A program made the translations under genes and the position numbers. Under the pieces are notes generated by a model, which saw nothing but the letters and a program-made list of their open reading frames with translations, made no database searches and was not told where the DNA came from. Below, one piece after another: positions 23,706 through 51,187 of a DNA stretch of 64,000 bases; within the stretch, counting starts at the first letter, position 1, and every line of letters begins with the position of its first letter. The DNA lies in assembly GCF_003991225.1 (NCBI RefSeq), contig NZ_JTFC01000042.1:186001-250000 (forward strand). The letters run 5' to 3'. Source of the stretch: Candidatus Kurthia intestinigallinarum (GTDB taxonomy: Bacteria; Bacillota; Bacilli; Bacillales_A; Planococcaceae).

Positions 23706-23849
23706 AAAAAATGAGGCTGGGACAAACACTTTATTTTCCTTTTTTAGTGTTCGCAACGAAAAACCGGAACCGCGCAACAGCGCGATTCCGGTTTTTCTTA
23801 TGCTCATATGAGAGATTGTTTTACACTTATGTCCCAGCCTCATTTTTTT
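23706..23849. repeat. Structured convergent-gene repeat, copy A
   Basis: Outer arms AATGAGGCTGGGACA and TGTCCCAGCCTCATT pair perfectly. Inside are a GTTCGCAAC mini-hairpin, a large A5/T5-flanked hairpin (CCGGAACCGCGC with GCGCGATTCCGG, about 23758-23797) and a CTCATATGAG palindrome. It fills the gap between the 23304 gene and the TSUP gene exactly and should terminate both. Confidence 0.85.
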
Positions 23850-24621
23850 AAAACAAAATATCCGTCCAAATTTTCACAGCTGTTAGCGTAATGAGTAAAG
23901 CTAAGAAAATTTGAAGTGCTCGTGTATTCATCGTTTTTGCAACCTTAGCGCCAAGTGGAGCGGCAATAATTGCTGCAACTGCTAAAATGATGAAAGGCAA
24001 CCACTCAACTTGTCCCGTTGAAATCTTGCCAATTGAACTCCCGATTGACGAAATAAATGTAATCGCTAGACTCGAAGCAATTGTTACGCGCGTTGGAATT
24101 TTTAAAATAACGAGCATAATTGGTACGAGTAAAAAGCCCCCGCCTGCACCTACAATACCAGATCCAACCCCAACAAATAGCGCTAGACCTGCTGCAAGTG
24201 GTTTATTAAAGGTTACTTCTGTTGTATCTGGCACTTGTTTTCTTGGTATCAACATCAACACAGCAGCAAGTAACGCAAAAATACCGTATACGATATTGAC
24301 GCCTTCCTCACTAAAGCTGCTTGATAAAAAACTTCCACCGAGGCTCCCCACTAATACAGCAGTCCCCATAATGAAAATGAGTTTAGCATTTAAATAGTTG
24401 CCCTTTCGAAAAGCAAGTACACCTGAAATCGATGTCACAAGCACTTCAACCGCCGTAATACCTGATACTTCATGCGATGTGAATGATCCCACACCGAGTA
24501 GCGCCGGGATATATAATAACATCGGAAATTTGATGATAGCTCCGCCAATACCGAGCATGCCGGAAATAAACGAACCCACAATCCCGATAGCAAATAACGT
24601 TGCAATAAATCCAATGGTCAT
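23848..24621 (-). CDS. TSUP/TauE-SafE family sulfite or sulfur-anion exporter
   Basis: A 257-residue protein with about eight membrane helices. It has the duplicated TSUP pattern, including GSFISGMLGIGGAIIKFPMLLY (about 16-37) and GVGSGIVGAGGGFLLVPIML (about 155-174). In persulfide-stress operons such proteins export sulfite, thiosulfate or related anions (TauE in the cst system). It is last in the rhodanese/rhodanese/DsrE operon but separated by 149 bp, so it may also have its own promoter. The stop codon overlaps repeat copy A. Confidence 0.85.
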   Translation of the reverse strand: MTIGFIATLFAIGIVGSFISGMLGIGGAIIKFPMLLYIPALLGVGSFTSHEVSGITAVEVLVTSISGVLAFRKGNYLNAKLIFIMGTAVLVGSLGGSFLSSSFSEEGVNIVYGIFALLAAVLMLIPRKQVPDTTEVTFNKPLAAGLALFVGVGSGIVGAGGGFLLVPIMLVILKIPTRVTIASSLAITFISSIGSSIGKISTGQVEWLPFIILAVAAIIAAPLGAKVAKTMNTRALQIFLALLITLTAVKIWTDILF

Positions 24622-24770
24622 AATGTGCCTTCTTTCATTTGTGCCTTAGTCCACATTCTATAGTACACGTTTTATCGTAACTTTTATACGGTAGAGCGCT
24701 CTCTTCATATAAAACATAAGAACCGATGTATTTTGCACGAAGCATGGACGATTTTTATTAAAACAATTCA

Positions 24771-25166
24771 TTAGAATGATAATGAAGGTGCTGCATCTTT
24801 AGCAAATTCTAAGAATGTAACAGCTCCGCCTACTTCGATTCCATCAATAAATGCTTCTTTAGTTAAACCCATTACATCCATTGTCATTTGACAAGCAATC
24901 ATTTTTACACCTAAATCTTGCGCCATTTCAACTAATTCTGGAATAGCTGGCACTTTCGCTTGTTTAAAGCCTTCTGCCATTGCTTCTTTCCCTGCTGGTA
25001 GTGGTAGTGCATGCATCGCTTCTTTGTGAATTAAGTTTAACCCTTCAAATGTAAAGAAGATGGCTACCTCTTTGTCAGTTGCGGCTGCTGCCGTTGCGAT
25101 ATTGAATACTTTATAAGCGTCGAAAAGACCACCGTTTGATGCGATAATAGCTACTTTGTTTGACAT
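24771..25166 (-). CDS. DsrE/DsrF-family sulfur-relay protein
   Basis: A 131-residue DsrE-fold protein (MSNKVAIIASNGGLFDAYKVFNIATAAAA...EVAIFFTFEGLN). The conserved cysteine lies in KMIACQMTMDVMGL (Cys about 92), the residue that carries persulfide in this family. It likely accepts sulfane sulfur from the rhodaneses encoded just upstream. A GAGG-type ribosome binding site is present. The order rhodanese, rhodanese, DsrE, TSUP is like the B. subtilis yrk and S. aureus cst persulfide operons. Confidence 0.85.
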   Translation of the reverse strand: MSNKVAIIASNGGLFDAYKVFNIATAAAATDKEVAIFFTFEGLNLIHKEAMHALPLPAGKEAMAEGFKQAKVPAIPELVEMAQDLGVKMIACQMTMDVMGLTKEAFIDGIEVGGAVTFLEFAKDAAPSLSF

Positions 25167-25209
25167 AATAAATTTCCTCCTATTAATTAACGAATTATAA
25201 TATAATGTG

Positions 25210-25509
25210 TTATTTTACTGGACCTTCCCAAGCAAGCATGCCACCGACCATATTTGTCGCGTCATAGCCCATATCTGTTAAGAATTGTGTTGCTTGTCCA
25301 CTGCGTGCAGATGAACGACATACTAAAATATAAGGTGTTTGCTTATTCAAATCTGGTAATTTGGCCTCTAATAAGTGCAAAGGAATATTATCAATCCCTT
25401 CAATATGTCCTTCTGCCACTTCTTGTGGTGTACGCACATCAATTAAATGTAGCGCCTCACCTGCATTCATTTTTGCTAATACATCTGTTGTTGAAATTTC
25501 CTTCATCAT
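25210..25509 (-). CDS. Rhodanese-like sulfurtransferase, second of the pair
   Basis: A 99-residue single rhodanese domain. HLIDVRTPQEVAEGHIEGIDNIPL carries the CH2A motif, and the active-site loop is VCRSSARSGQ with catalytic Cys about 69. It transfers sulfane sulfur between thiols in the cytosol. It lies 9 bp downstream of another rhodanese gene in the persulfide operon and is more canonical in its N-terminal motif than that paralogue. Confidence 0.9.
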   Translation of the reverse strand: MMKEISTTDVLAKMNAGEALHLIDVRTPQEVAEGHIEGIDNIPLHLLEAKLPDLNKQTPYILVCRSSARSGQATQFLTDMGYDATNMVGGMLAWEGPVK

Positions 25510-25518
25510 TGTTCCTCC

Positions 25519-25809
25519 TTAATAAGCACTCATACCACCGCGAACATTTGTCACGTTCAGGCCGAGCTTTTTCATTTGTTTGCATGCTGCTTTTGAGCGC
25601 ATACCACTTTGACAGATCACGACAATTTCTTTGTTTGTTGGTAACTTACTGTAATCTGAACCAAGTGGCATATTTTTAAATTGACGTAAGCCGTTCGATT
25701 TATACTCCGCTTTCGTACGTACATCGATAAATACCTTATCTTTGTCATTTAGACAATCTTTTAATTGTGCTGTTGAAATTGATGGTATTTTTGAAAAAAA
25801 TGAAAACAT
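25519..25809 (-). CDS. Rhodanese-like sulfurtransferase, first of the pair
   Basis: A 96-residue rhodanese domain with VFIDVRTKAEYKSNGLRQFKNMPL and active-site loop VICQSGMRSKAACK (catalytic Cys about 70), with a further Cys seven residues later. The N-terminus MFSFFSKIPSIS is short and hydrophobic and could give loose membrane contact. It is the first gene of the operon, directly behind a promoter carrying an inverted-repeat operator. Confidence 0.9.
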   Translation of the reverse strand: MFSFFSKIPSISTAQLKDCLNDKDKVFIDVRTKAEYKSNGLRQFKNMPLGSDYSKLPTNKEIVVICQSGMRSKAACKQMKKLGLNVTNVRGGMSAY

Positions 25810-25868
25810 AAAACGACCTCCTATACGGTTAATGGTATTTTCTTTTCAGTAATTACTTTACGATTAAT

Positions 25869-25897
25869 ATCATATACCCCATGAGGTATAAAGTCAA
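25869..25897 (-). promoter_or_regulatory. Persulfide-operon promoter with embedded operator
   Basis: On the minus strand, -35 TTGACT and -10 TATGAT are separated by 17 bp. The spacer contains TATACC(N6)GGTATA (25873-25890), a perfect inverted repeat of the type bound by CsoR/CstR repressors. Binding there would block polymerase. No csoR/cstR-like gene lies in this window. Confidence 0.8.
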
Positions 25898-26065
25898 AGA
25901 AAAGAATTTATTTTTTTATTAGGCCCTTTATTTCAGCTTTTTATACAATTTTAATTTTATTCATATTATGTTACAACATCTATTACACCTATTTTTTCTT
26001 ATAGAATTTCTACACACCATAGGGTATTTTAAAAATCAAAAAATGAGTATTTTCACTTACAATAA

Positions 26066-26076
26066 AATGATATAAT
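26066..26076 (+). promoter_or_regulatory. Extended -10 promoter for the 26109 gene
   Basis: TGATATAAT is a perfect extended -10 box 32 bp before the start codon, without a convincing -35. A GGGTAT half-site about 45 bp upstream (26022-26027) resembles the persulfide operator. Confidence 0.5.
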
Positions 26077-26108
26077 AGGTTAAGTTATCCATTTTAAGGA
26101 GCGTTTTT

Positions 26109-26699
26109 ATGGTAAAATATCCTATAAAATTAGTACAATTACAAAGGATGTATGAGATACGAGCATGGATTTTAGAAGGATATGTGGCATTTCTTATAGG
26201 CATCTACTGCTTTATCCCCTTTTTACAGAAAATACAACATATTACAGACAGTTCGCTGTACTTTCCTTCTTCGTTTACGAACGCTGCACAGTACTATTTT
26301 CAGTTTGTGCCACAGTATGTAGTCACCGCAGTTGCTACTATACCTATTTGGCGCGTGCTTGCTACATTGATTAGTGATATGGCTATCTTTGGATTTTTTG
26401 CTGTTATTTTAGGGTATCTCGTGACATTGCAATTCCCACATAGATATGCAACTAGTTCATCAAAGTCATTAACTCGAAGTCTGATGCTAGACATTGCAGT
26501 TATTCAGCTCATTTGTGCGCTGCTATGTATTCAGCCCTTTGTTTTATCTGTCTCTGTAGCATTATGGCTAGGGCTAATGTGCGGTCATACAATCGCAATA
26601 CTTTATCAGGAAATGCTAGCGCATCCTCATGAAAAAGGCTTAACCATTTTACGAGGCTTCTTTTATATAAAAGAAGAAACCAACAACATCACCTATTGA
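26109..26699 (+). CDS. Multi-pass membrane protein of unknown function
   Basis: A 196-residue protein with about four to five membrane helices (about 18-36, 68-84, 88-112, 128-150, 152-168) and a basic N-terminus. No transporter or enzyme motif is recognised. It is divergent from the persulfide operon, with an operator-like half-site between them, so shared regulation is possible. A secreted repeat protein starts 18 bp downstream and is probably in the same operon. Confidence 0.6.
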   Translation: MVKYPIKLVQLQRMYEIRAWILEGYVAFLIGIYCFIPFLQKIQHITDSSLYFPSSFTNAAQYYFQFVPQYVVTAVATIPIWRVLATLISDMAIFGFFAVILGYLVTLQFPHRYATSSSKSLTRSLMLDIAVIQLICALLCIQPFVLSVSVALWLGLMCGHTIAILYQEMLAHPHEKGLTILRGFFYIKEETNNITY

Positions 26700-26717
26700 A
26701 GGAGCTGATGATCGCTT

Positions 26718-27245
26718 ATGAAAAAACTTAAAAAAATCGTTGCTACCTGTAGCTGTGCTGCATTACTACTCGTTGCTACAACACCGGCATCTGCCGCCTC
26801 CTATAAATTGGTCTATTATACGTTATACAATAAGAAAACCAATCAGCCGGTAAAAGGCTATGCTGTTTACAAAAATACGCTCTATTATGATGCGATTGAA
26901 AAGGTAGGACGCTATTCATATAAAGGTGTACTTTATCATAATGGTGCGCCCTATAGCGGCGTACAAAGACCTGATGGCATTCGTTATGTGGACGGTAAAC
27001 CGCTAACAGGCTTTCACAACGAAAGTGGCAAATATTTTGTGAAAGGCATCGTAGCAAGTGGTACCTATGATGGTATTCTTTATAAAAATGGTCGCGCCTT
27101 CTCTGGTGTTGTCGATGCCATTCGTTATGTAGACGGTGTCCGATTAACGGGCATTCATAAAGACAGCGGCAAATATTTTGTTGATGGTATTGTCGCAAAT
27201 GGTATGTATAATGGGACAATCTACAAAAATGGCTATGCCCATTAA
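26718..27245 (+). CDS. Secreted protein with tandem GxxYKNG-type repeats
   Basis: A 175-residue protein with a signal peptide (basic MKKLKK, hydrophobic core, cleavage after ASA near residue 27). The mature part is built from similar units: IRYVDGKPLTGFH...GKYFVKGI...GILYKNG (about 88-126) and IRYVDGVRLTGIH...GKYFVDGI...GTIYKNG (about 135-172), with a weaker unit before them. Such tyrosine/glycine beta-repeats resemble cell-wall or choline-binding-like modules. GGAGCTGATG lies upstream of the ATG. Function unknown; probably wall associated. Confidence 0.7.
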   Translation: MKKLKKIVATCSCAALLLVATTPASAASYKLVYYTLYNKKTNQPVKGYAVYKNTLYYDAIEKVGRYSYKGVLYHNGAPYSGVQRPDGIRYVDGKPLTGFHNESGKYFVKGIVASGTYDGILYKNGRAFSGVVDAIRYVDGVRLTGIHKDSGKYFVDGIVANGMYNGTIYKNGYAH

Positions 27246-27288
27246 AAAAGCAGGAATTGCGAACACCTACGCAATTCCTGCTTTTTTC
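27245..27288. terminator. Bidirectional terminator
   Basis: An AAAAAAGCAGGAATTGCG hairpin with its perfect complement and a 9-nt loop, with A and T runs on both sides. It lies between the convergent repeat-protein gene and the small membrane protein gene. Confidence 0.9.
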
Positions 27289-27289
27289 T

Positions 27290-27499
27290 TTATTTTTTCG
27301 TATCTTCAGTTGTCGGCTCAATATAGGTGTTATCATCTTGAATCGGATGACGCGTCACGCCATCGTCTTTTCCAGATGTGGCATTATCAAATGGCGTATA
27401 CATATCTTCTACTGGGCGGCGTTTAATCACAACACGATAAAATGCGATACCAATGAGTACTAAAAACGCAACTGCAATTACAAGACCAATCCATTCCAT
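27290..27499 (-). CDS. Small single-pass membrane protein, 69 aa
   Basis: One N-terminal helix (about 3-22, WIGLVIAVAFLVLIGIAFYRV) is followed by a basic stop-transfer segment (VIKRRPVE) and an acidic, threonine-rich hydrophilic tail. No family is recognised. It lies 40 bp downstream of the acyl-CoA ligase gene on the same strand and may be its last co-transcribed gene. It ends at a strong shared terminator. Confidence 0.6.
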   Translation of the reverse strand: MEWIGLVIAVAFLVLIGIAFYRVVIKRRPVEDMYTPFDNATSGKDDGVTRHPIQDDNTYIEPTTEDTKK

Positions 27500-27539
27500 G
27501 CCTATTCGCCTCCGTTCGTCATCGTTACAAATCTATACC

Positions 27540-29024
27540 CTATGTGCTGCTTCGTAACACATGCTTCAGTACTTTTCCAGAAGCATTACGCGGTAAGGCA
27601 TCCATTAATTCCATCTCCACCGGTATTTTATACTTTGCTAAACGCTCTACACAATGCGCTGTTAGCTCCTCAACTGTCAGCGTCTGTCCTTCTTTTAAAC
27701 AAATATACGCCTTCGGTACTTCGCCGTAAATAGGATGTGGTACCCCTACAACAGCTGCTTCAAGCACTGCTGGCATTTGGAATAATACTTCTTCCACCTC
27801 GACCGGATACACGTTTTCCCCGCCGCGAATCAACATATCTTTTTGGCGATCAACGATATATAGGAAGCCCTCTTCATCAAGACGGCCTAAGTCACCTGTA
27901 AATAACCAGCCATCGCGTAGGGCATGTGCCGTTTCCTGTGGATTGCGTAAATAGCCGGTCATCGTCTGCGGTCCCTTGACAATAATTTCACCGACGACGC
28001 CATTTGGTACGGATTCACCGTCTGGTCCAACAATGCGAACAGCTGTTTTTTTCGTTGGCGGCTTACCGACAGAGCCGATTTTCTCCAATACGTCATTCCC
28101 TTTAAGTGTTGTGGAGCACGGTGCGTTTTCTGTTTGACCATAAAAATTTTGTAGTGACACATGCGGAAATAACTTACGCAACTTTGATACTAATTCATAA
28201 GGCATCGGTGCCGCACCATACGCAAATAAGCGTACATGCGATAAATCAAACGCTGAGAAATCCTCATTATTTAATAGCAGCATATACATCGCCGGCACAC
28301 CAAAGAAAATTGTCGCCTGTGTATCACGCAGCCAGGTTGGCATTTGTGTCGGCGAAAAGGCTTCTTCGATAATAAACGTACCCCCTGCCATGACAATCGG
28401 CGTTAAGAACACATGTAAGCCCGCACAGTGAAATAATGGTGTACAAATAAACATACGGTCCTGTACCGTTAATCCAACCGACTCCACCCACTGCGAAGTT
28501 GCCTCATACACCGCACGATACGACAGCATGACACCCTTTGGCTTTCCTGTCGTCCCTGACGTATACATAATCACCGCAATATCCTCATCCTCTACGCACG
28601 TTGTCTCAAATGGCGCATGTGCATAAATTTCAGGCAAATCCTCGGTTGTGAAGCGCTGTGCAATAGGCATGCCCGTTGCATCTAGCTTCGGCGTAAGTGC
28701 CGTATCACAAAAAATAGCCTTTACCTCCGAATGCTCGATAATATAGGCAATTTCTGCTGGTGCTAGCTTCGTATTAATTGGCATAGCGATAAGCCCTGCT
28801 AGCTGAATCCCAAAGTAAATGACCGGAAAATCATCATGATTATCCATAAAAATACCGATAATCGTATCCTTATCATAATTAAATTGCTGTAAGTATCCTG
28901 CTAAGGCAGTCGCCTGTCTATAGACGTCTCCATAGGTTTTTTTATGAGACCGAAATTCAAAGGCTATTTTTTCAGGCTGTTGTATTGCTTGTTGCTTTAA
29001 AACGAGCGGCATACGTTTTTGCAT
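27540..29024 (-). CDS. Class I acyl-CoA synthetase (AMP-dependent ligase)
   Basis: A 494-residue adenylate-forming enzyme. The AMP-binding motif IMYTSGTTGKPKGVML (about 154-169), the A5 segment LQNFYGQTENA, and the C-terminal RQKDMLIRGGENVYPVEVEEVL and NASGKVLKHVL (catalytic Lys) are all present. It activates a carboxylic acid with ATP and joins it to CoA. Length and motifs fit fatty-acid or aromatic acyl-CoA ligases; MenE-like activity is an alternative but no men genes are near. GGGGAG precedes the start. Monocistronic or paired with the small membrane gene downstream. Confidence 0.85.
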   Translation of the reverse strand: MQKRMPLVLKQQAIQQPEKIAFEFRSHKKTYGDVYRQATALAGYLQQFNYDKDTIIGIFMDNHDDFPVIYFGIQLAGLIAMPINTKLAPAEIAYIIEHSEVKAIFCDTALTPKLDATGMPIAQRFTTEDLPEIYAHAPFETTCVEDEDIAVIMYTSGTTGKPKGVMLSYRAVYEATSQWVESVGLTVQDRMFICTPLFHCAGLHVFLTPIVMAGGTFIIEEAFSPTQMPTWLRDTQATIFFGVPAMYMLLLNNEDFSAFDLSHVRLFAYGAAPMPYELVSKLRKLFPHVSLQNFYGQTENAPCSTTLKGNDVLEKIGSVGKPPTKKTAVRIVGPDGESVPNGVVGEIIVKGPQTMTGYLRNPQETAHALRDGWLFTGDLGRLDEEGFLYIVDRQKDMLIRGGENVYPVEVEEVLFQMPAVLEAAVVGVPHPIYGEVPKAYICLKEGQTLTVEELTAHCVERLAKYKIPVEMELMDALPRNASGKVLKHVLRSST

Positions 29025-29122
29025 GCATGTTCTCCCCTTTTCTTGTCAGCATTCCCGCGGCAAGTGCAATCATAAGTAATACATCATTCCCTTAATATAC
29101 CAATTATAATCCTTTTATCTAC

Positions 29123-29150
29123 AAAAAAAAGCCCACAGTTGTGAGCTTTT
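29123..29150 (-). terminator. Terminator of the 146-aa protein gene
   Basis: The stem AAAGCTCACA/TGTGGGCTTT is followed by eight T on the minus strand, right after the stop at 29157. Confidence 0.75.
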
Positions 29151-29156
29151 CATACG

Positions 29157-29597: not shown

Positions 29598-29840
29598 AAT
29601 AATCCCTCCAATATCTATTTTATTATACTTTAATCTTGAGCAATACACAAAACTGCTCAAAATCATTCTATTTTTAATAGACTATGTATCGATTTTTCTA
29701 TTTTCTGTTGAAATATGTCGTGTTTTTGCGTAAAAATATAAGAAAGTCTGAATTTTTCAGATTAATAGAACATTTAGTGGTAAACTGTACACTATACAAA
29801 AACATCAGTCTTTCTAGAGAACACATTCGGAGGTTACATA

Positions 29841-31073: not shown

Positions 31074-31118
31074 AAAAACGAGACTCGGGCAAGTTGTTGT
31101 CCGAGTCTCATTTTTTTA
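31073..31118. terminator. sstT terminator
   Basis: A GAGACTCGG/CCGAGTCTC stem with a 12-nt loop is flanked by A7 and T7. Confidence 0.9.
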
Positions 31119-31158
31119 TGGCGATGCCCTCATGCTATACTAAAGACGAGGTGATTCG

Positions 31159-31509: not shown

Positions 31510-31557
31510 GTTCAAAAAAAAGCGGGAATATCATAGATAACAACTGTAAGGGATGTG

Positions 31558-31759: not shown

Positions 31760-31888
31760 ATGTCTATTGCGATTCTTCTCATTCTCATCGTCATTATTTT
31801 AGGATTAATGATCAATTTATTTGAAGCCTTTCGCCGCGCAAAACCTCCCGCCCACTTTAAAAAGCGGGAATATGAAGATGACGACTAA
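31760..31888 (+). CDS. Membrane microprotein, 42 aa
   Basis: ATG 31760 follows AAGGATGGTG. The product has a single helix (SIAILLILIVIILGLMINLF) and a charged tail ending in four consecutive acidic residues (EDDD). It is unrelated in sequence to the microprotein just upstream. Its stop directly abuts repeat copy B. Function unknown. Confidence 0.5.
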   Translation: MSIAILLILIVIILGLMINLFEAFRRAKPPAHFKKREYEDDD

Positions 31889-32028
31889 AAAGAGACTAGG
31901 ACAAAACACGTCATGTTCCTTTTTTAGCGTTCGCAACGAAAGACCGGAACCGCGCCACAGCTCGATTCCGGTTTTTCTTATGCTCCTATGAGAGGTGATT
32001 TCTACACGTATGTCAAAGCCTCTTTTTA
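31887..32028. repeat. Structured convergent-gene repeat, copy B
   Basis: About 75-80% like copy A by eye. Shared parts are TTTTTTAGCGTTCGCAACGA, the CCGGAACCGCGC/GCTCGATTCCGG hairpin, CTTATGCTCCTATGAG and the right arm TGTCAAAGCCTCTTTTT. The left arm AGAGACTAGGACA pairs only imperfectly with it. It spans the whole gap between the 31760 gene and chrA. Confidence 0.85.
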
Positions 32029-32030
32029 GA

Positions 32031-33173
32031 TTAAAAGAAACCACCAATAAGGATTCCAACGACAACAACTAGTAACGGCGACCATTTCAGGAGCATAGCA
32101 AACAACAGAATCACCCATAAAATATCAAGCCATGAATGAATGGTCGAGGTGACAATCGGTGTAATCCAAGCAGCTATCAACACGCCTATTACTGCCGCAT
32201 TCATACCATTAAATGCACCGCACCATTTTGGATTTGAGCGGATTTGTTGCCAAAAAGGATAGGCCCCTATAATTAATAAAAAAGCGGGTAAAAAAATCGC
32301 CACCGTTGCTAGTAACGCCATAGGTATACCGCCTATAACCATGCCTAAATAGCTAGCAAAAGTAAATAATGGTCCTGGCACGGCTTGAACCGCTCCGTAG
32401 CCTACTAAAAAATCATTGAGTGAAATCAGTCCCGTTTCAACGAGGCGTTCTTCAAGTAGTGGCAAGACCACATGTCCTCCGCCAAAAACAAGCGCACCAG
32501 CCGTATAAAACTTTTCGAACATCACAAGCCATGTCGTAGGCCATAATTTCGCTATAAGCGGCAAGGCTACGAGCAGCACACCAAAGGCAATTAAAAATCC
32601 CGCAGCAATTCGCTTAGAAATAACATTCTCTACAAGAAGCGCTGGTTGCTGCTGACGTAAAAAGAGTTGTCCTGCAAGTGCTGCAATTAGTAGGACGATG
32701 ATTGTACTATACGTCGTTTGCCAGCTTAAAAGAACGGCCGTTGCTACCACTGTTAGAATGATAGCCATTTTTGAATGCCAAATTTTTTTTGACATATCTA
32801 AAATTGCATGCGCAACAATTGCTACAGCCACGAGCTTTAAACCATGAAGCCAGTCAAGTGACCAGTTCCCTTTTGCATGGATGTAGGCAAAAATCATTAG
32901 CACAACTACCGATGGCAATGTAAATCCTAAAAATGCTACGATACTGCCTAAAATCCCCCCTTTTTTTAATCCAATTCCCATACCTACCTGACTAGATGCA
33001 GGACCTGGTAAAAACTGACTTAAGCTTACTAAATCTGTATACTCTACTGCTGTTAACCATTTCTTTTCCTTTACATAAACACGTTCAAAATAAGCTAAAT
33101 GTGCACTCGGCCCGCCAAAGGATACGAGCCCTAATTTCAGTGCAGTCCAAAAAATCATGAGTAATTGTCCCAT
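32031..33173 (-). CDS. chrA: Chromate transporter ChrA
   Basis: A 380-residue CHR-family protein with two homologous CHR domains and about 10-12 helices. Domain 1 shows FGGPSAHLAYFERVYVKEKKWL and LSQFLPGPASSQVGMGIG; domain 2 shows VFGGGHVVLPLLEE and GYGAVQAVPGPLFTFASYLG. It exports chromate, probably as a chromate:sulfate type antiporter. GAGGGGTGG precedes the start. It has no chrB-type regulator beside it and is monocistronic. Confidence 0.9.
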   Translation of the reverse strand: MGQLLMIFWTALKLGLVSFGGPSAHLAYFERVYVKEKKWLTAVEYTDLVSLSQFLPGPASSQVGMGIGLKKGGILGSIVAFLGFTLPSVVVLMIFAYIHAKGNWSLDWLHGLKLVAVAIVAHAILDMSKKIWHSKMAIILTVVATAVLLSWQTTYSTIIVLLIAALAGQLFLRQQQPALLVENVISKRIAAGFLIAFGVLLVALPLIAKLWPTTWLVMFEKFYTAGALVFGGGHVVLPLLEERLVETGLISLNDFLVGYGAVQAVPGPLFTFASYLGMVIGGIPMALLATVAIFLPAFLLIIGAYPFWQQIRSNPKWCGAFNGMNAAVIGVLIAAWITPIVTSTIHSWLDILWVILLFAMLLKWSPLLVVVVGILIGGFF

Positions 33174-40530: not shown

Positions 40531-40651
40531 ATTGCATATGTATTCTTACATTATTATTATTTTTTATAATAAATACTAAAAAATTCCACATTATCATGCA
40601 TTTTGATATACAATAAAAAGATACCAATCGAATTCCGAAAGGATGATGACC

Positions 40652-41251
40652 ATGCCATTCCAATTAGAGTCCCCATTTATCGATGACTATTTGAAACCGA
40701 CAGATGTCGTCAACTACCATCACGAACGTATCGAGCAGTTAATCGACGCATTACATGTGGTCGAATTACCAGAATTAGAAAAAGTACGCACTTTTTATGA
40801 ATATGTACGCGATAAGATTGCCCATTCATGGGATGAGCAAACTCACACCGTTACACGTACAGCATCCGATGTTGTAGAGCATCAAACAGGTATTTGCTAT
40901 GCTAAGGCGAATTTACTAGCCGCACTACTGCGCCATGAAGGCATTCCAAGTGGTTTTTGTTACCAACGATTAATGCTATTTGATGAGCCACAGCAGGGCT
41001 ATTACTTGCATGCCTTTAATGCGATTTATTTAACATCGCTCAATCGCTGGGTGTATGCCGACGCACGCGGCAATGTGCAAACGGAGTTATCTCTTGAGGA
41101 GCCTGCACTCGCCTTCACTGCCGATGAATCACTTGGTGAAAAAACGTATGACGTCATTTATATTGCACCAAATCCTAAAACGATGAATGTTCTAAAAGAA
41201 GCCGAAGATGCACTCGCCATGTACGCAAATGATTTACCGGACACATTATAG
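40652..41251 (+). CDS. Transglutaminase-like cysteine protease-fold protein
   Basis: A protein of about 199 residues. I choose the third of three nearby ATG codons because AAAGG lies eight bases before it. The catalytic triad is in order: C82 in QTGICYAKANLLAALLRHEGIP, H120 in YYLHAFNAIYL and D137 in WVYADARGN. There is no signal peptide, so it acts in the cytosol. Such proteins may be peptidases or amidases. It is monocistronic and ends at repeat copy C. Confidence 0.8.
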   Translation: MPFQLESPFIDDYLKPTDVVNYHHERIEQLIDALHVVELPELEKVRTFYEYVRDKIAHSWDEQTHTVTRTASDVVEHQTGICYAKANLLAALLRHEGIPSGFCYQRLMLFDEPQQGYYLHAFNAIYLTSLNRWVYADARGNVQTELSLEEPALAFTADESLGEKTYDVIYIAPNPKTMNVLKEAEDALAMYANDLPDTL

Positions 41252-41268: not shown

Positions 41269-41408
41269 AAAAGAAATTGGGACAAAGCACGTCATGTTCC
41301 TTTTTTAGCGTTCGCAACGAAAAACCGGAATTGCGCTGAGGCACGATTCCGGTTTTTCTTATGCTCTTAGGAGCGATTGTTTTTACACGTATGTCAAAGC
41401 CTCTTTTA
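41269..41408. repeat. Structured convergent-gene repeat, copy C
   Basis: Shares CACGTCATGTTCCTTTTTTA, GCGTTCGCAACGA, the CCGGAATTGCG/CACGATTCCGG hairpin (partly weaker than in other copies), CTTATGCTCTTAGGAG and ACACGTATGTCAAAGCCTCT with copy B. It lies between the transglutaminase-like gene and the convergent HTH gene. Confidence 0.85.
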
Positions 41409-41448: not shown

Positions 41449-41712
41449 TTATTGATCTACTGTAATATAAGCTGCACCGTTTGCCTTACGATAAAATGTA
41501 AAATTGACATGCTCCGGGTAACATTCGCTAAGTTTTTGCAAATCGATAAAATGCGAATAAATTGTACGACGGTCTAGTTTTTGACTTACATTAAATTCTG
41601 CACTCATATAGTTAACGACCTGAGCTGCATTAAGTGGGGTTGTTTCACTTGAATACTTTTTTAATACTAAAAATGTATATACTAATAAGATATTTTGCTG
41701 TGCAATTATCAT
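41449..41712 (-). CDS. Winged-HTH-only protein (WYL-regulator-like N-domain)
   Basis: The protein is about 87 residues if translation starts at ATG 41712, which follows GAGGGTG right after the upstream stop. A longer frame from 41754 lacks a ribosome binding site. The sequence LVYTFLVLKKYSSETTPLNAAQVVNYM...LDRRTIYSHFIDLQKL reads like the DNA-binding half of WYL-domain regulators, without the ligand half. It is immediately downstream of a membrane protein gene and probably translationally coupled to it. A membrane-signal/HTH pairing is speculation. Confidence 0.6.
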   Translation of the reverse strand: MIIAQQNILLVYTFLVLKKYSSETTPLNAAQVVNYMSAEFNVSQKLDRRTIYSHFIDLQKLSECYPEHVNFTFYRKANGAAYITVDQ

Positions 41713-41719
41713 CACCCTC

Positions 41720-42433
41720 TTAATCATGTATTTGCTTAGCAATGCATCCATCATGTTTCAAATGAATGATTCCTGGAAAATTTGGCAATTTCCTTCTAAA
41801 CGGCATAACAAAAACCTCTTTTTGTGTTACACTGTCCGCGATAAAATGAGCAAGTTCTTCAGAAAAATTCGATTGAAGCGGAAAATGGCGCAAGATTTCC
41901 TGTGTATTATAATCGACAATGCGCAATCGTCCCTCATAAAACATAAGCTCTAGCGGTCGTCTTAACTGTTGTCGCTGTAATTGTGCAACTACTTCCTTTG
42001 TAATCGCAAATTCGTAGGTTGATTGCTCATACAATTTAAACAATTGGCGACGCTTCCCTGCATGCTTCATTGCCTGCTCATCAAGTGCCACAATCGGCCG
42101 TTTATGCGTACAGGCTTCTAGTCGCTTCATTTGTTGCATGAGTGATTGCTCACGCCAAGCATATCCTTCACAAAGCGCTAATAAAAAAAGCATGCTCATC
42201 GGTACGAGCCACATAGGGATACCAACAAGATAAAATCCAGCTAAGATGACAGCAACTGAAAAAAACAATGCTGGACGCCTGATTTCATTGTTATAGTAAT
42301 AGCCCATACCGGGCGCAATGATATTAACTAGTAGACGCCTTTGTTTCGTTAGCTGTTGATGTCTCACAGCATGATGCCCAATGAGCAGTAACACATACAG
42401 TACATATCCATATACACCGATTAAAAAAATCAT
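41720..42433 (-). CDS. Membrane protein with cytosolic domain, unknown
   Basis: A 237-residue protein with an N-terminal helix (about 1-19), two or three helices around 55-92 preceded by LLVNIIAPGMGYYYNNEIRRPALFF, which resembles a TM2-type turn. A C-terminal cytosolic part of about 140 residues is rich in basic residues. No enzyme motif is seen. The downstream HTH gene starts 8 bp after its stop. Confidence 0.55.
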   Translation of the reverse strand: MIFLIGVYGYVLYVLLLIGHHAVRHQQLTKQRRLLVNIIAPGMGYYYNNEIRRPALFFSVAVILAGFYLVGIPMWLVPMSMLFLLALCEGYAWREQSLMQQMKRLEACTHKRPIVALDEQAMKHAGKRRQLFKLYEQSTYEFAITKEVVAQLQRQQLRRPLELMFYEGRLRIVDYNTQEILRHFPLQSNFSEELAHFIADSVTQKEVFVMPFRRKLPNFPGIIHLKHDGCIAKQIHD

Positions 42434-43245: not shown

Positions 43246-43304
43246 AAAACACACCTCTTTTTTCATTTTTTTACAGTAATTGTATTATAACAGAAGAAAT
43301 ACGC

Positions 43305-43340: not shown

Positions 43341-43355
43341 ATAAAAAGCGTTGAT

Positions 43356-44279: not shown

Positions 44280-44293
44280 AGTGAAATACCCCT

Positions 44294-45238: not shown

Positions 45239-46718
45239 CTTTGTCACCTCCAGTAGCATAATGCATAATTTTTTCTTGTGTCATGTCCTCACCAGCAACC
45301 TCGCCAGTGATTTTACCTTCGTGCATCACAAGTACGCGGTCAGACATGCCGATAACTTCTGGTAATTCAGAAGAAATCATTAAGATGGCTACGCCTTGTT
45401 CTGCAAGGTCATTCATGATTTGATAAATTTCTTTTTTCGCGCCGATATCAACGCCGCGTGTTGGTTCATCTAAAATTAAAATTTCAGGTTCAATGCCTAA
45501 CCATTTTGCGATAACTACTTTTTGTTGGTTACCACCGGACAATGATTTGGCAGATAGTTCAGCACTTGGTGTTTTAACGCCAAGCTTTTTCACAAGATTG
45601 CCAACAAATGACTTTTCTTTCGAACCACTAATGATGCCTGATTTAGATGTTTTACCAAAGTTGGCCATCGCGATATTTTCTTTAATCGAGAAGTCAACGA
45701 TCAACCCTTGTGTTTTACGGTCTTCTGTTACAAAGCCGATACCTAATTTTTTAGCTTGACGAGGGTTTTTAATTTTCACAGCGTTTCCGTCAATGAATAA
45801 TTGACCCTTCGTCATTTTGCGGTAGCCGAAAATTGCTTGCGCTACTTCCGTACGACCCGCCCCCATTAATCCAGCAAGTGCGACAATTTCACCTTTACGG
45901 ACATTGAAATGAACATCTTCACAGAGGCCCGGACGTGTAAGCCCTTTCACTTCAAGCTTTACATCACCGATTGTTGCGTTGCGTCCTGGGAAGCGTTCAC
46001 CAAGTTCACGACCAACCATCATCTGAACAATTTCGTCAAATGTCGTATCTTTAATCGTACGAACACCGACATACTCACCGTCACGTAAAATCGTAATGCG
46101 GTCACAAATCGCGAAAATTTCTTCCATACGGTGAGAAATGTAAACGAATGATACCCCTTCTGATTTTAGCTTGCGAATTGTTTTAAATAATGTTTGAATT
46201 TCACGGTCTGTTAACGCAGCCGTCGGTTCATCCATGATGATAACATTTGCTTTTGTTTCCATCGCTTTGGCGATTTCAATAATTTGCTGTTTACCGACTG
46301 ACAATGAACCTGCTGGTGTACGCACATCAATGTCTAAACCTAATTGGTTTAAAATACGTTTTGCCTCTTTATTCATTTCTTTGTTTTTCATAATCCCCAT
46401 ACCAACTGTTTGCTCATTACCTAAAAATAAGTTTTCAGCAACCGTTAAGTCCGGTAAAATGTTTAACTCTTGGTGGATAACGGCAATCCCTTTTGCTTCT
46501 GCCTCTTTTGGTGATTTGAAGTGAACTTCTTCACCATCGACTTTAATGACGCCGTTATCACGCTCGTAAATCCCCGTTAGAATTTTCATCATCGTTGATT
46601 TACCCGCACCATTTTCGCCCATTAGCGCGTGGATTTCTCCATCTGCTAACTGGAATTGGACGTCTTTCAAAACAACATTCCCACTGAATGCTTTTTGAAT
46701 GCCCGACATTTCAATCAT
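45216..46718 (-). CDS. rbsA: Ribose ABC transporter ATPase RbsA
   Basis: A 500-residue protein with two ABC domains. Domain 1 has Walker [10 protein letters not shown], signature LSVGKQQ and Walker [12 protein letters not shown]. Domain 2 has the degenerate P-loop GLMGAGRTE usual for RbsA, signature LSGGNQQK and [12 protein letters not shown]. It powers ribose import with RbsC. GGAGG precedes the start, 15 bp after rbsD. Confidence 0.95.
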
Positions 46719-46733
46719 GCACGTTTCCTCCTT

Positions 46734-47126
46734 TTAAAAAATGACACCTGATTGCAATAAGATATTGGCATACGGCGTAGCCTCACCCGTACGAATAATG
46801 ACTTTCGCTTTTGCAGATAGCGCTTTCAATTGTTCATGTGAAACCTCTTCAAATGCTGTATCTACTATGTCATGCACCGCTTTGTAAAGGGGTGCATTTT
46901 GTGATGCCATTTCAGTGGCGATAATTGCTTTTTCTGTTTTGTAGTCTGCTAAAACAACTTCTAAAATCGCCATGAAGCCCGGCTCTCCAATTTTGTAAGC
47001 GAGATCGATGCATGTAACACCATCTGGAATCGGTAACCCGCAGTCTGCAATCATAATTTGATCTGTGTGACCAATACGTGCAAAAATCCCGGCTAGTTCA
47101 CGATTTAAAATACCTTGTTTTTTCAT
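46734..47126 (-). CDS. rbsD: D-ribose pyranase RbsD
   Basis: A 130-residue protein: MKKQGILNRELAGIFARIGHTDQIMIADCGLPIPDGV, with the catalytic His in RIGHTD, and a C-terminal IIRTGEATPYANILLQSGVIF. It interconverts pyranose and furanose forms of ribose, giving the form RbsK uses. It follows rbsK with a 1-bp gap. Confidence 0.95.
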   Translation of the reverse strand: MKKQGILNRELAGIFARIGHTDQIMIADCGLPIPDGVTCIDLAYKIGEPGFMAILEVVLADYKTEKAIIATEMASQNAPLYKAVHDIVDTAFEEVSHEQLKALSAKAKVIIRTGEATPYANILLQSGVIF

Positions 47127-47127
47127 G

Positions 47128-48006
47128 TTACTGTGCGCCTCCTAAGCGTTTAAGCACTGCTTCTTGCTGTGGCATACCGCCTTGTGCACCAAATTTTTCA
47201 ACTGATAATGATGCCGCGACATTCGCAAATTCAACTGCCTCTGACAACGATTGATTTGTCGTTAGTGCATGCGCTAAAGCACCATTAAATGTATCACCCG
47301 CACCTGTTGTATCAACAGCTTTTGTTTTAAAGCCTTTAACAAACACATGTTGTGTCCCATCATAGTAGCGTGCCCCGTCTGCGCCTAATGTAACGATTAA
47401 TTGATTCGGGAAGCGTTCTAAAGCGCTCTCTACATCAACGCCGAAAATATCAGCACATTCTGTTTCATTTGGTGTGAAGTAAGCAACGCGTTCCATCCAT
47501 TCTGCTTTAAAATTCTCAGCAGGCGCTGGATTTAATAACACACGTGTATGTAATTCTTCACAAACGGACAGCGCATACTCTACTGTATCTTGTGGAATTT
47601 CTAGCTGCATAACGACTAAATCACTTTTAGCGATTAATGTACGTGCTGCATCGATTGATTCGCGCGATACATCTGCGTTCGCTCCTGGTACCACGATAAT
47701 GCGGTTATCATTATCAAATAATGTAATGTTCGCAATACCTGTTGCTGTCTCTGTTGTACGAACGAATGTATCGTCAATCTTTTCTTGTTGTAAAATCGTA
47801 CGCAATTCGTTACCAAATGCGTCTTGACCAAGCGCACCAACCATATGTACATGGCTGCCTAAACGGGCAACTGCAACAGCTTGGTTTGCTCCTTTACCGC
47901 CTGGAACGGTATGGAACCCTTGTCCAAAAACCGTTTCTCCTTGCTTTGGAAAAACAGTCGTTTCAACGACGATATCCATATTAATACTACCGATTACTGT
48001 AATCAT
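47128..48006 (-). CDS. rbsK: Ribokinase RbsK
   Basis: A 292-residue PfkB-family kinase. GSINMDIVVETTVFPKQGETVFG and PGGKGANQAVAVARLG form the sugar-binding N-terminus. VDTTGAGDTFNGALAHAL holds the anion hole and catalytic Asp. It phosphorylates ribose to ribose-5-phosphate. Its start overlaps the rbsR stop by four bases (ATGA). Confidence 0.95.
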   Translation of the reverse strand: MITVIGSINMDIVVETTVFPKQGETVFGQGFHTVPGGKGANQAVAVARLGSHVHMVGALGQDAFGNELRTILQQEKIDDTFVRTTETATGIANITLFDNDNRIIVVPGANADVSRESIDAARTLIAKSDLVVMQLEIPQDTVEYALSVCEELHTRVLLNPAPAENFKAEWMERVAYFTPNETECADIFGVDVESALERFPNQLIVTLGADGARYYDGTQHVFVKGFKTKAVDTTGAGDTFNGALAHALTTNQSLSEAVEFANVAASLSVEKFGAQGGMPQQEAVLKRLGGAQ

Positions 48007-48992
48007 AATTCCGTTCCTTTCGTTGTTGAATTTCGAACGACGAGCTTCGGCGGAAATACAACGCGCTTCGCTGTCATTTTTTGTCCTTCAATTAATGCAA
48101 TTAATAATTCTGTTGCACGCTCTCCCATTAAGGAAATCGGCTGCGCAATCGTTGTTAGCTCTGGCGATAGCAATGTACCGATATTAATACCGTCATAACC
48201 AACAAGTGATACATCCTTTGGAATGTGTATCCCTAGTGATTCAGCTGCTTTCATTACACCGATTGCCGATGCATCGCTTGACGCAAACACCGCATCATAA
48301 TCCCTTGTGTGTTGCAACTGCTGAAGGGTCACCTTTTTAGCTGACTCAAAATCAAAAGGGCTCACAATCGTATCGTACTGTATGGTTGGATGTTGCTTCA
48401 TGATTTCTTCAAAGCCGCGCATCCGATCATTTGCGACATCAATATCAAGTGGCCCGCGCACACATAAAATGCGTTTGACGTTTTGCTCGACCAAATAATT
48501 AGCGACAAGCTGTCCACCTAATACATTATCCGATGTCACTGTTGGAATCGCTTCTGATAAATTACGATCAAGTGCGACAATAGGTACATCTAGTTTCTTA
48601 TAGAAATCTGCTTCGATATGGTTTGTAGTTACGATAAATCCTGCTGCATAATTTTGTTGCAGCGAGCGGATATAATGTTTTTCTTTTTCACTCGTTTCGC
48701 CCGCATTGCACAACACCACTGTATAGCCATGCTCATAAGCTGTACGTTCAACCGCACGTGCTAGTTCAGGGAAAAAAGGGTTTGTAATATCTGGTACAAG
48801 CAAACCAAGTAAATTCGTTTGCTTCGTCGTTAGCGAGCGTGCTAATTGATTTGGTGCATAATTTAATGTAGTAATTGCCTTCTCAATTATCTGCTTCGCA
48901 TCATTACTTACATAGCCTTTATTATTCAAATGTCTAGAAACAGTCGCTACAGAAACTCCTGCCTCTTTTGCGACATCACGAATTGTTGCCAA
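48003..48992 (-). CDS. rbsR: Ribose operon repressor RbsR (LacI family)
   Basis: A repressor of about 329 residues. I place the start at TTG 48992, giving MATIRDVAKEAGVSVATVSRHLNNKG as in other RbsR proteins, eight bases after GAGG; the GTG at 49001 is part of that site. The HTH is at residues 3-22, followed by a periplasmic-binding-like domain (LIGLLVPDITNPFFPELARAVE). It represses the operon by binding the palindromes upstream, with ribose as likely inducer. Confidence 0.92.
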   Translation of the reverse strand: MATIRDVAKEAGVSVATVSRHLNNKGYVSNDAKQIIEKAITTLNYAPNQLARSLTTKQTNLLGLLVPDITNPFFPELARAVERTAYEHGYTVVLCNAGETSEKEKHYIRSLQQNYAAGFIVTTNHIEADFYKKLDVPIVALDRNLSEAIPTVTSDNVLGGQLVANYLVEQNVKRILCVRGPLDIDVANDRMRGFEEIMKQHPTIQYDTIVSPFDFESAKKVTLQQLQHTRDYDAVFASSDASAIGVMKAAESLGIHIPKDVSLVGYDGINIGTLLSPELTTIAQPISLMGERATELLIALIEGQKMTAKRVVFPPKLVVRNSTTKGTEL

Positions 48993-49018
48993 TGCATTCA
49001 CCTCAAAACGATCTGTTA

Positions 49019-49032
49019 TGTAACCGGTTCCA
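49019..49032. promoter_or_regulatory. Second RbsR/cre-like site
   Basis: On the minus strand TGGAACCGGTTACA matches cre at 13 of 14 positions and has a perfect AACCGGTT core. It is a few bases downstream of the stronger site, in the leader. Confidence 0.6.
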
Positions 49033-49050
49033 TGTGTAACCGATTACACA
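49033..49050. promoter_or_regulatory. RbsR/CcpA operator of the ribose operon
   Basis: TGTGTAACCGATTACACA has perfect 7-bp arms. The inner TGTAATCGGTTACA (minus strand) fits the cre consensus at all 14 positions. It lies just after the -10 box, as in the B. subtilis rbs operon, where RbsR and CcpA act at one site. Confidence 0.85.
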
Positions 49051-49051
49051 T

Positions 49052-49080
49052 AATATAATGCACGAATTTTATCAAGTCAA
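49052..49080 (-). promoter_or_regulatory. rbs operon promoter
   Basis: On the minus strand, -35 TTGACT, a 17-bp spacer and -10 TATATT. Confidence 0.8.
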
Positions 49081-49291
49081 CACATTTTTTTATTAGGTTA
49101 TACTATTTTCAACTGTTACATGACTTAAAGAGTGTTATAAAACAGCACATTGACGCTTTTTTGTAGCAAATCGGGTAATGATTTGTCCCACCAAAAAATT
49201 TTTTTTAGGTCATGTAATATCCCTAAATGCAGAAAAATGGTATGATATAGAAAATAGTTTCTTAAAAGAGAAAAAAGAAGGTGTTTGACAT

Positions 49292-50551
49292 ATGAAGATG
49301 AGTTTATCGCAAAAACAACAATTAAAATTATATATGACCACACAATTGCGCCAATCCATTGAATTACTACAGTATTCACACGAAGATTTAGTTGAATTCG
49401 TACGTGAACAGGCATTAGAAAACCCTTTAATTGAATTAGAAGAAACCACTTCAAGTTATCAAAAATCTACAACGGGATTTGATGATGTGTTACCATCCGT
49501 TGCAGGCGAGACAGATTACCGGGATGAACTGTTACAATTGCTACACTGTGAAGTGAAAGAACAGCGATTACTCTATGCATGCTTAACAATTGTTCACAAC
49601 TTAGATGACAATGGCTATTTGTCACGCGATGCCATCGCCGCCTATCAGATTCCGGAAGCGTTATTACAAGCAGCAATTCAAGAATTACAGCAGCATGGTC
49701 CGCCTGGAATTGCGGCCTTTGATTTACGCCACTGTTTATTACTACAATTAGAAGCACTCGAGCCGCGCCAAATCGTTGCCGAAAAAATTGTTACTTCTCA
49801 TTTAGAGGATGTCGCAAATAGTGCCTTTGAAAAAATTACGCAGGCGCTTCATATCACGCCGCATTCACTGCGCCGTGCCATTCGAAAAATTCAAGCACTC
49901 GAGCCAAAGCCATGTCGTTCGCTTTTTAGTCGTCCTGCAACGACGATTACGCCTGATGCGACGGTGATGCTAAGTGATGAAGGCTTTACATTCCAATTAA
50001 ATACAGCTGGCATGCCAAAAATTTCTCTTTCTACTGCCTATGATGCCTTTTTTGAACATCAGGAAGCAGCAGAATTTTTAAAAATGCAGTTTAAGCGCTA
50101 TGAATGGTTACTACATAGTTTAAATCAACGTCAAAGCACATTAACGCGTCTTTTAGAGGCTGTCGTTGCACATCAGCAGCCCTTTTTCTATCAAGGTTAT
50201 ATTGCGCTAAGACCGCTATTATTAAAAGATATTGCCGCACAATTGGGCGTGCATGAGTCTACCGTTAGTCGCGCTACTAAAAATAAATGGCTAGCAACAC
50301 CTTTTGGCACAATTGCGCTACGCTCATTGTTTACCAATGCGGTATCTGAAGACGGAGCCTCTCAAACATCGATTAAAGTGCATATTCAAAATTTGATTAA
50401 TACAGAAAATAAAACCCGCCCCTTATCAGACCAAAAAATTACTGATTTATTAATGGCGAAAGAAAATATTACGCTTGCACGTCGTACAGTGGCGAAGTAC
50501 CGCGATGAGCTTTCAATCCCAAGTGCCTCGAAAAGAAAGTGTCTTATCTGA
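49292..50551 (+). CDS. rpoN: RNA polymerase sigma-54 factor
   Basis: A 419-residue sigma-54 (SigL). Region I is MSLSQKQQLKLYMTTQLRQSIELLQYSHEDL with LENPLIE. A core-binding region and HTH (IAAQLGVHESTVSRATKNKW) follow, then the RpoN box ARRTVAKYRDEL near the C-terminus, which reads the -24 element. It directs transcription that needs ATP-driven activators. The regulator at 465-1748 belongs to that activator family but looks inactive, so the partners of this sigma factor lie elsewhere. AAGGTG precedes the start. Confidence 0.93.
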   Translation: MKMSLSQKQQLKLYMTTQLRQSIELLQYSHEDLVEFVREQALENPLIELEETTSSYQKSTTGFDDVLPSVAGETDYRDELLQLLHCEVKEQRLLYACLTIVHNLDDNGYLSRDAIAAYQIPEALLQAAIQELQQHGPPGIAAFDLRHCLLLQLEALEPRQIVAEKIVTSHLEDVANSAFEKITQALHITPHSLRRAIRKIQALEPKPCRSLFSRPATTITPDATVMLSDEGFTFQLNTAGMPKISLSTAYDAFFEHQEAAEFLKMQFKRYEWLLHSLNQRQSTLTRLLEAVVAHQQPFFYQGYIALRPLLLKDIAAQLGVHESTVSRATKNKWLATPFGTIALRSLFTNAVSEDGASQTSIKVHIQNLINTENKTRPLSDQKITDLLMAKENITLARRTVAKYRDELSIPSASKRKCLI

Positions 50552-50580
50552 TATACTTAATGTATAAGGAGGTCATCTAA

Positions 50581-51045
50581 ATGAACAAATACATTTTTTC
50601 TACTGTGAGTTTCATCTTATTTTTTGCTGTAGCCCTTTATGGAACCGTTCATTTTCATGAGCTACCTCCATTTGTATACAGCGCACTCTTTGATGATTGG
50701 CAAACGCGTGAAATGGTCTTTTTACCACTTGTCGCAGGCATTGTGCTGTGGAGCTTTCTTCATCTATTGGCAACACATCCAGAATGGCATGAATTTTCCG
50801 ATAAATATTCTGAAAATAAAGAATTATCTTTTAAAAATTCTTCTACTGTGTTACATGTGCTGAAAAATGCTGTGTGTATCGTCTTAACACTCAAAACTTA
50901 TGTAGATATTTATCATATCCTTCACCCAACTGCACCCGTTATGACAGGCACTACGTTAGTCAGCATCGCCTTTTTATTACTTAGTTCGTTACTCACTGTC
51001 TATTTCATCCGAACACGTCATGAATTTTTGCATTATTCAAAATAG
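50581..51045 (+). CDS. Four-helix membrane protein, DUF1648-like
   Basis: A 154-residue protein with four membrane helices (about 5-22, 45-62, 92-110, 122-142). The layout HELPPFVYSALFDDWQTREMVFLPLVAGIVLWSFLHLL is reminiscent of DUF1648. AAGGAGG precedes the ATG, 29 bp after rpoN, so it could be co-transcribed with it. Its stop merges into repeat copy D. Function unknown. Confidence 0.6.
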   Translation: MNKYIFSTVSFILFFAVALYGTVHFHELPPFVYSALFDDWQTREMVFLPLVAGIVLWSFLHLLATHPEWHEFSDKYSENKELSFKNSSTVLHVLKNAVCIVLTLKTYVDIYHILHPTAPVMTGTTLVSIAFLLLSSLLTVYFIRTRHEFLHYSK

Positions 51046-51187
51046 AAAAGGGACTGAGGCAAAACATGTCATGTTTCTTTTTTAGCGTTCGCAATGAAAA
51101 ACCGGAACCGCCCTACAGCGCGGTTCCGGTTTTTCTTATGCTCATATGAGATGTTACTTTTACATGTATGTCAAAGCCTCTTTTTTC
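51044..51187. repeat. Structured convergent-gene repeat, copy D
   Basis: Contains TTTTTTAGCGTTCGCAATGA, a CCGGAACCGCCC/GCGCGGTTCCGG hairpin with a changed but still pairing base (A to G against C), CTCATATGAG, and the right arm TGTATGTCAAAGCCTCTTTTTT. It fills the gap between the 50581 gene and the convergent GNAT gene. Confidence 0.85.

Follow-up and report, generated by a model that had tools for sequence, protein, structure and literature searches.

A 64,000-nucleotide stretch of the Candidatus Kurthia intestinigallinarum genome (contig NZ_JTFC01000042.1, positions 186,001 to 250,000 of the forward strand), referred to below as the window, contains four copies of a non-coding repeat of about 140 bp, each located in a gap between convergent genes (Table 1). 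The original prediction of four such copies, all in convergent gaps, holds: they align without gaps over 140 nt, and the other three are 72, 86, and 87% identical to copy 2, which served as the reference. All lie on the plus strand, 0–41 bp from the stop codons of both neighbors, and copy 1 occupies the interval between the stop codons of the open reading frames (ORFs) at 23304–23705 (+) and 23848–24621 (-). Our hand-edited gene list divides the gaps of the window into 8 convergent, 53 tandem, and 8 divergent ones, of which 4, 0, and 0, respectively, contain the element. The predicted CCGGAA...TTCCGG hairpin is found in every copy and folds on both strands (-22 to -33 kcal/mol), with none of 200 shuffled sequences folding as well in any of the comparisons. 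In addition, each copy is bounded by an outer inverted repeat, a feature absent from the original description.

Copy number, position, and taxonomic range

A genome-wide survey with a covariance model built from 30 copies placed the element at no fewer than 149 distinct positions (150 rows of matches) in the 3.93-Mb genome, down to E = 5.6e-6; this number is far above chance, and weaker copies may be missing from it. The mean spacing is therefore one copy per about 26 kb, and the 8–10 kb spacing that had been noted is a local property of the window. Copies within the genome have a mean identity of 83% and include one identical pair.

We read 147 of these copies together with their flanks (2 were left out) and classified 105 as convergent, 37 as tandem, 3 as divergent, 1 as overlapping a called frame, and 1 as having no left neighbor. 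Convergent gaps account for 13.7% of the element-free intergenic bases of the window, compared with 105 of 147 copies. A called stop codon lies within 20 bp of 132 of the 147 copies and within 50 bp of 138. Among the tandem copies, 33 of 37 are located within 25 bp of the 3' end of the upstream gene, and no tandem copy comes that close to a 5' end. Since the gene caller, a home-made hexamer scorer, overlooks short genes (e.g., those at 31761–31888 and 50581–51045 of the window), these distances and class counts are approximations that tend to make the copies seem farther from gene ends than they are. In terms of position, the outcome that was to refute the original prediction, copies between tandem genes with no bearing on transcript ends, was thus not observed in the genome-wide survey. 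The property common to the copies is a gene 3' end, tandem gaps included. Confinement to convergent gaps applies to the four window copies only, and a pure convergent-gap rule was rejected given the 37 tandem copies, 33 of them at a 3' end. The same is true of the shared orientation, which is found in the window; genome-wide, 57 convergent copies are on the plus strand and 48 on the minus strand (contig coordinates), and a fixed orientation was likewise rejected. The minus strand of the element folds better in 124 of 145 copies, and 26 of the 37 tandem copies are oriented opposite to the upstream gene (p 0.02); we give this strand preference no weight because the copies are related by descent.

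With the covariance model, copies were detected in all 8 Kurthia genomes and in none of 23 genomes of other genera. When the best 105 candidates per genome were scored, there were at least 105 copies in the genome studied here and 8, 75, at least 105, 25, 94, 19, and 5 in genomes G001 to G007, respectively. An exact core pattern matched Kurthia senegalensis NZ_HE611066.1, the sole named record matched. Ten copies were read in the K. senegalensis genome (G006); their mean identity is 95%, two identical copies lie between unrelated flanks, and 9 of the 10 are within 20 bp of a called 3' end (all 10 within 30 bp). Two of four further copies, from G004 and G007, are within 25 bp of a called 3' end. 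Carriage of the element by plasmids was rejected, as none of 72,556 plasmid records matched at E 1e-5. A search of a viral collection for 12-base ends at 95–125 nt found inverted GAGGCTGGGACA ends, the 12-mer of the outer repeat, in one stretch, L213 (IMGVR_UViG_2579778522_000001), at 11814–11962, spanning 149 nt.

Anatomy, folding, and ends of IS1182 type

The consensus of the element, derived from 145 copies, is 139 nt long. From the left, it consists of an A tract, GAGGCTGGGACA, ~35 nt, the CCGGAA hairpin with its A and T tracts, ~34 nt, then TGTCCCAGCCTC or its variant TGTCAAAGCCTC, and finally a T tract. Modeled as RNA (either strand) or as DNA, the single-stranded sequence of one copy forms a rod, with z scores of -7.9 to -9.5 that none of 200 shuffles equaled. 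We set our own thresholds for the hairpin, requiring dG < -12 kcal/mol and four or more consecutive T on both strands; 128 of 145 copies reach them. Across the 11 pairs at the base of the inner stem, we counted 13 compensatory cells, i.e., cells in which both sides have changed and Watson-Crick pairing is kept, compared with a mean of 0.31 and a maximum of 3 in 1000 shuffles. Pairing of the inner stem has thus been preserved, through selection or through template switching inside the palindrome. The element is predicted to be a two-way terminator in which the inner hairpin, between A and T tracts, is nested in an outer stem.

The outer repeats (GAGGCTGGGACA...TGTCCCAGCCTC) match the ends of some insertion sequences (ISs) of the IS1182 family, and both ends are recognizable within 3 mismatches in 107 of 147 copies (the right end was tested against two variants). 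IS1182 elements of Kurthia gibsonii, Cytobacillus, G061, and G076 match all 12 bases at each end. Inverted pairs of GAGGCTGGGACA lying ~1.8 kb apart in two other genera of the same bacterial family enclose an IS1182-family transposase that passes the curated cut-off, and the NF033551 elements that we read have GAGGCTGGGACA ends with an inner hairpin. On plasmids, the IS1182 elements of K. gibsonii and Cytobacillus are flanked by the same ends, as is that of Mammaliicoccus sciuri, which has a single mismatch at one of them. By eye, IS1182 ends with the exact repeat carry a perfect or near-perfect terminator-like hairpin about 15–30 nt inside. Several IS1182 elements have ACAAAAC at one end and ACATAA at the other; the Kurthia element similarly has ACAAAAC and ACATACG. 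The genome studied here also has IS1182 pieces, located at contig ends; the exact end sequence is found on C135, and C226 has it with one mismatch.

The position of these ISs is also similar. The K. gibsonii IS lies 7 bp past an annotated stop codon and 13 bp before a convergent one, and among five distinct IS1182 copies, 4 have an open frame of at least 240 nt whose 3' end comes to within 35 bp on one side or both (these neighbors are open frames rather than gene calls). The original lead to GAGGCTGGGACA-type repeats of Firmicutes was thus right and can be sharpened: the shared sequence is the terminal repeat of some IS1182-family elements.

Table 1. Copies of the repeat in the window and the genes on either side of them
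Feature	Coordinates	Strand	Details
Element copy 1	23709–23845 (model match); 23708–23847 (ungapped alignment)	+	Outer repeats 23713–23724 (GAGGCTGGGACA) and 23830–23841 (TGTCCCAGCCTC); inner hairpin 23758–23797; covariance-model match, alignment, folding
Element copy 2 (alignment reference)	31888–32026 (model match); 31888–32027 (alignment)	+	Outer repeats 31892–31903 (GAGACTAGGACA) and 32011–32022 (TGTCAAAGCCTC); inner hairpin 31938–31977
Element copy 3	41269–41407 (model match); 41269–41408 (alignment)	+	Outer repeats 41273–41284 (GAAATTGGGACA) and 41392–41403 (TGTCAAAGCCTC); inner hairpin 41319–41358
Element copy 4	51046–51184 (model match); 51046–51185 (alignment)	+	Outer repeats 51050–51061 (GGGACTGAGGCA) and 51169–51180 (TGTCAAAGCCTC); inner hairpin 51096–51135
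Upstream gene of copy 1	23304–23705	+	No Pfam match
Convergent partner of copy 1, TauE/SafE-type permease	23848–24621	-	Stop codon overlaps T run beyond element
Small reading frame ending at copy 2	31761–31888	+	
Convergent partner of copy 2, chromate-transporter family	32031–33173	-	
Upstream gene of copy 3, transglutaminase-like	40643–41251	+	
Convergent partner of copy 3	41449–41754	-	No Pfam match
Upstream gene of copy 4	50581–51045	+	No Pfam match
Convergent partner of copy 4, GNAT acetyltransferase	51191–51784	-	

Membership of the element in an Rfam family was rejected, since a search of the window at the gathering score returned two thiamine pyrophosphate (TPP) riboswitches only. These riboswitches (54970–55068 and 55118–55216, minus strand) are arranged in tandem upstream of minus-strand genes and are 89% identical over 81 nt. 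Elsewhere in the window, 55290–57249 (-) encodes bacterial SH3-domain proteins (two were scanned) with repeats common to neighboring frames, and 26973–27232, within the frame 26718–27245, contains a pair of 119-nt direct repeats that are separated by 141 nt and share 75% identity.

Corresponding gaps in related genomes

With the aim of reading the same gaps in related genomes, we drew 24 sites at random from 63 eligible convergent sites and searched the flanks of 15 in three relatives. Sites 1, 5, and 7 were dropped because no two flank matches lay near each other, and two pairs at site 9 were left out (2.8 kb apart in G005 and inverted in G006). Both flanks were found close together in at least one relative at 11 sites; at one more site, an element adjoins the right flank. 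Of the 20 gaps that could be read, 14 have an ordinary hairpin and no complete element. More specifically, 11 are compact, measuring 35–84 nt from stop to stop, with one ordinary hairpin (folded) and no element, and 3 contain ordinary hairpins and extra DNA without a complete element (by eye), one of them with an IS1182-like end remnant and one 1.9 kb long. The element occupies 5 gaps, in two of them in the opposite orientation, and the remaining gap, of 22 nt, is without a clear hairpin. The opposite orientation has homologous flanks on both sides at L234 (C13:46858 versus G005); at L230, only the right flank is homologous. At L219, an element site in G000 and G005, G003 (C17:6800–7280) has AAAAGAGGCTTTGGGAAATCCCAAGCCTCTTTT, which resembles two fused element ends and is perhaps a remnant.

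The sites of the window copies were also followed. Past a frame similar to that at 31761–31888 (by eye), G003 and G005 have ordinary hairpins at the site of copy 2. At the site of copy 3, ordinary hairpins are found in G003 and G006. In G005, an inverted element lies beyond the upstream gene of copy 3, and the right neighbor is different. Copy 1 is present in G003, split by ~0.9 kb that resembles a broken insertion sequence.

What remains of a gap once the element is in place could also be examined. For the 72 convergent copies that have a stop codon within 20 bp on either side, the gap exceeds the element by a median of 7.5 nt, so that there is no room for a native hairpin. In addition, among the 107 of 147 copies with clear ends, the two flanks of a copy pair with each other above shuffled combinations at offsets 1, 3, and 4 and not significantly at offset 2 (p 0.14); the mean pairing run is 3.68, compared with 3.02 when shuffled, and 2000 shuffles reach 3.41 at most. 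Such complementarity would result if insertion spared the base of the replaced stem.

One copy, C175:886391, arrived by another route. Its flanks are 99% identical in DNA, and 97.5–100% in protein, to those at G003:C2:88772–89260, and elsewhere G000 and G003 are about 72–82% alike over the window region. These near-identical flanks indicate that the block was recently exchanged between species and that the copy moved with its genes.

Origin of the element and its significance

The known families nearest to the Kurthia repeat include the EFAR repeats. The stem-loop families Efa-1 (Enterococcus faecalis; listed with 163) and Sta-1 (Staphylococcus aureus) are likewise intergenic and predicted to fold on both strands (PMC2267715). 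The pneumococcal miniature inverted-repeat transposable elements (MITEs) RUP, BOX, and SPRITE are also short and non-coding, with many intergenic copies, and SPRITE is described as terminator-like; the available portions of that account (PMC10969869) do not describe terminator replacement and contain no occurrence of IS1182, convergent, or hairpin. Closer in proposed mechanism are IS1272 and TnSha1, IS1182-family elements of staphylococci that, according to parts of PMC5678879 and PMC4923244, insert into hairpins, often terminators, removing the stem and leaving no target duplication. In the same portions of these reports, 5 of 7 sequenced TnSha1 targets were confirmed as terminators by RNA sequencing, and insertions in both orientations were recorded at a single plasmid terminator. 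PMC4923244 also tabulates a probe that includes TTTATGTCCC, probably the inner part of the IS1272 end. A survey, in the part available (PMC9208149), lists IS1182 among the families over-represented between convergent genes. IS1272 and TnSha1 carry a transposase and have one hairpin per end, whereas the Kurthia repeat, at 139 bp, has no transposase gene and one central hairpin.

We consider it probable (about 0.7) that the repeat forms a MITE-like family, bearing ends of IS1182 type, that takes the place of hairpins, usually terminators, and is itself a two-way terminator. Such a family would be non-autonomous, about 139 bp long, and bounded by terminal inverted repeats of IS1182 type, and an IS1182-type transposase acting in trans would most likely insert it, on the model of IS1272 and TnSha1. 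By this analogy, IS1272 already supplies the mechanism of insertion. The transposase would recognize a hairpin, usually an intrinsic terminator just past a stop codon; most of the native stem would be deleted, and the element would take its place without target duplication, contributing its own predicted two-way terminator, which would probably end transcripts in the cell. As the host would lose one terminator and gain another, the insertion would be tolerated. That the family is mobile or amplified, as the original prediction suggested, is well supported by its copy number, by the differences in occupancy between species, by the opposite orientations at one gap, and by the identical G006 copies between unrelated flanks.

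Function alone would explain the 3'-end placement and the stem covariation if the repeat were an old, immobile type of terminator that was spread by duplication, gene conversion, or horizontal exchange of gene blocks and kept by selection; its likeness to IS1182 ends would then be coincidental, or the ends would have been borrowed by the IS. The C175:886391 copy, which moved with its genes, behaves as this would require. However, identical copies between unrelated flanks, with edges at the same bases, point to insertion, the opposite orientations at one gap and the unrelated ordinary hairpins at 14 of 20 orthologous gaps are not what immobile terminators would leave, and a 12-bp end common to IS1182 elements of several genera is hard to obtain by chance, so we regard this explanation as quite unlikely. 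A mobile element that depends on a transposase outside the IS1182 family, or is copied through RNA, and targets hairpins or T tracts would agree with an interior unrelated to the IS1182 ends seen and with the three copy-bearing Kurthia genomes that show no IS1182 transposase. It is an unlikely origin all the same, given that the end sequence, the ACAAAAC/ACATA asymmetry, and the placement after stop codons resemble those of IS1182 elements. Positive supercoiling accumulates in convergent gaps, and the bacterial interspersed mosaic elements (BIMEs) of enterobacteria are an example of sites for gyrase or nucleoid proteins in such gaps. The excess of copies in convergent gaps could accordingly reflect a BIME-like site acting at the DNA level, with termination secondary, but we find this highly improbable: 37 of 147 copies are tandem, 33 of these are still at a 3' end, the paired arms with A and T tracts fit termination, and nothing seen suggests a protein site.

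Several observations nevertheless weigh against replacement by an IS1182-ended element. Its likeness to the IS1182 elements of the genus is limited to the 12-bp ends and a few inner bases, and its interior matched none of the ISs seen; with no shared interior and no parent found, a simple deletion derivative of a resident IS1182 element was rejected. The ends are not universal in that family: both ends of the S. equorum IS1182 element have two mismatches, and none were found in the E. faecium element. The three genomes without an IS1182 transposase are the drafts G002 (75 copies), G004 (25), and G007 (5), and G006, also a draft (19 copies), has one trace of such a transposase (E 8.5e-4); repeats collapse in these drafts. 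A consensus terminator scanner called the inner hairpin in none of the four window copies, and its sole call was a stem of 5 pairs in the right arm of copy 3. In the element, the A and T tracts are paired inside the stem, and one strand has a C.A mismatch that the consensus scan disallows; the result counts against a textbook terminator. Covariation of the stem could stem from template switching in palindromes, and flank complementarity could partly reflect selection for A/T tracts. For nine of the 147 copies, the nearest called 3' end is over 50 bp away or no such end was called. Moreover, the relatives are 66–82% identical over the window region, too distant for the deleted bases or the exact junctions to be mapped, and terminators turn over without the element too, so that transposition and ordinary turnover are not separable site by site.

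The 12-base end is not limited to Kurthia. Among 95 sampled genera of Bacilli, 13 include a genome with at least 5 copies of GAGGCTGGGACA, compared with at most 1 per strand for the reversed control; at least one match is found in 39 genera, many at chance level. The GAGGCTGGGACA repeats of G044, G148, G013, G016, G025, G048, G052, and G069 have the same end and inner hairpins and differ in that 119–395 nt separate the paired 12-mers and, by eye, the interiors are unrelated. A different, highly conserved multi-hairpin repeat of ~185 nt is found at L252–L270 (G148 and, by locus order, G044), with GAGGCTGGGACA at its start and CTGTCCCACTCTC near its end in 13 of 13 loci among those listed. A search of the open-access full-text literature, its larger results covered in part, yielded no account of an element like that of Kurthia, which is no proof of its absence from print.

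Extrapolated from the 8 convergent gaps in the 64 kb of the window, the genome would have an estimated 490 such gaps, of which 105 end in the element. That it has taken over a sizeable share of the genome's terminators by swapping itself in is a tentative proposal, to which we give slightly less than even odds. Being a hairpin too, the element may in turn be replaced by further copies, which would account for the opposite orientations found at one gap. If it is true, a selfish element would be a standard part of transcription termination, the 3' ends of many transcripts in such genomes would be set by a mobile element, and terminator turnover by transposition would become directly testable. 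Further families sharing these ends would have originated repeatedly, and the unexplained GAGGCTGGGACA repeats of Firmicutes would be tied to one transposase family, with their position explained. Most insertions harm the host, and an element that swaps terminators would occupy a nearly neutral niche at gene ends.

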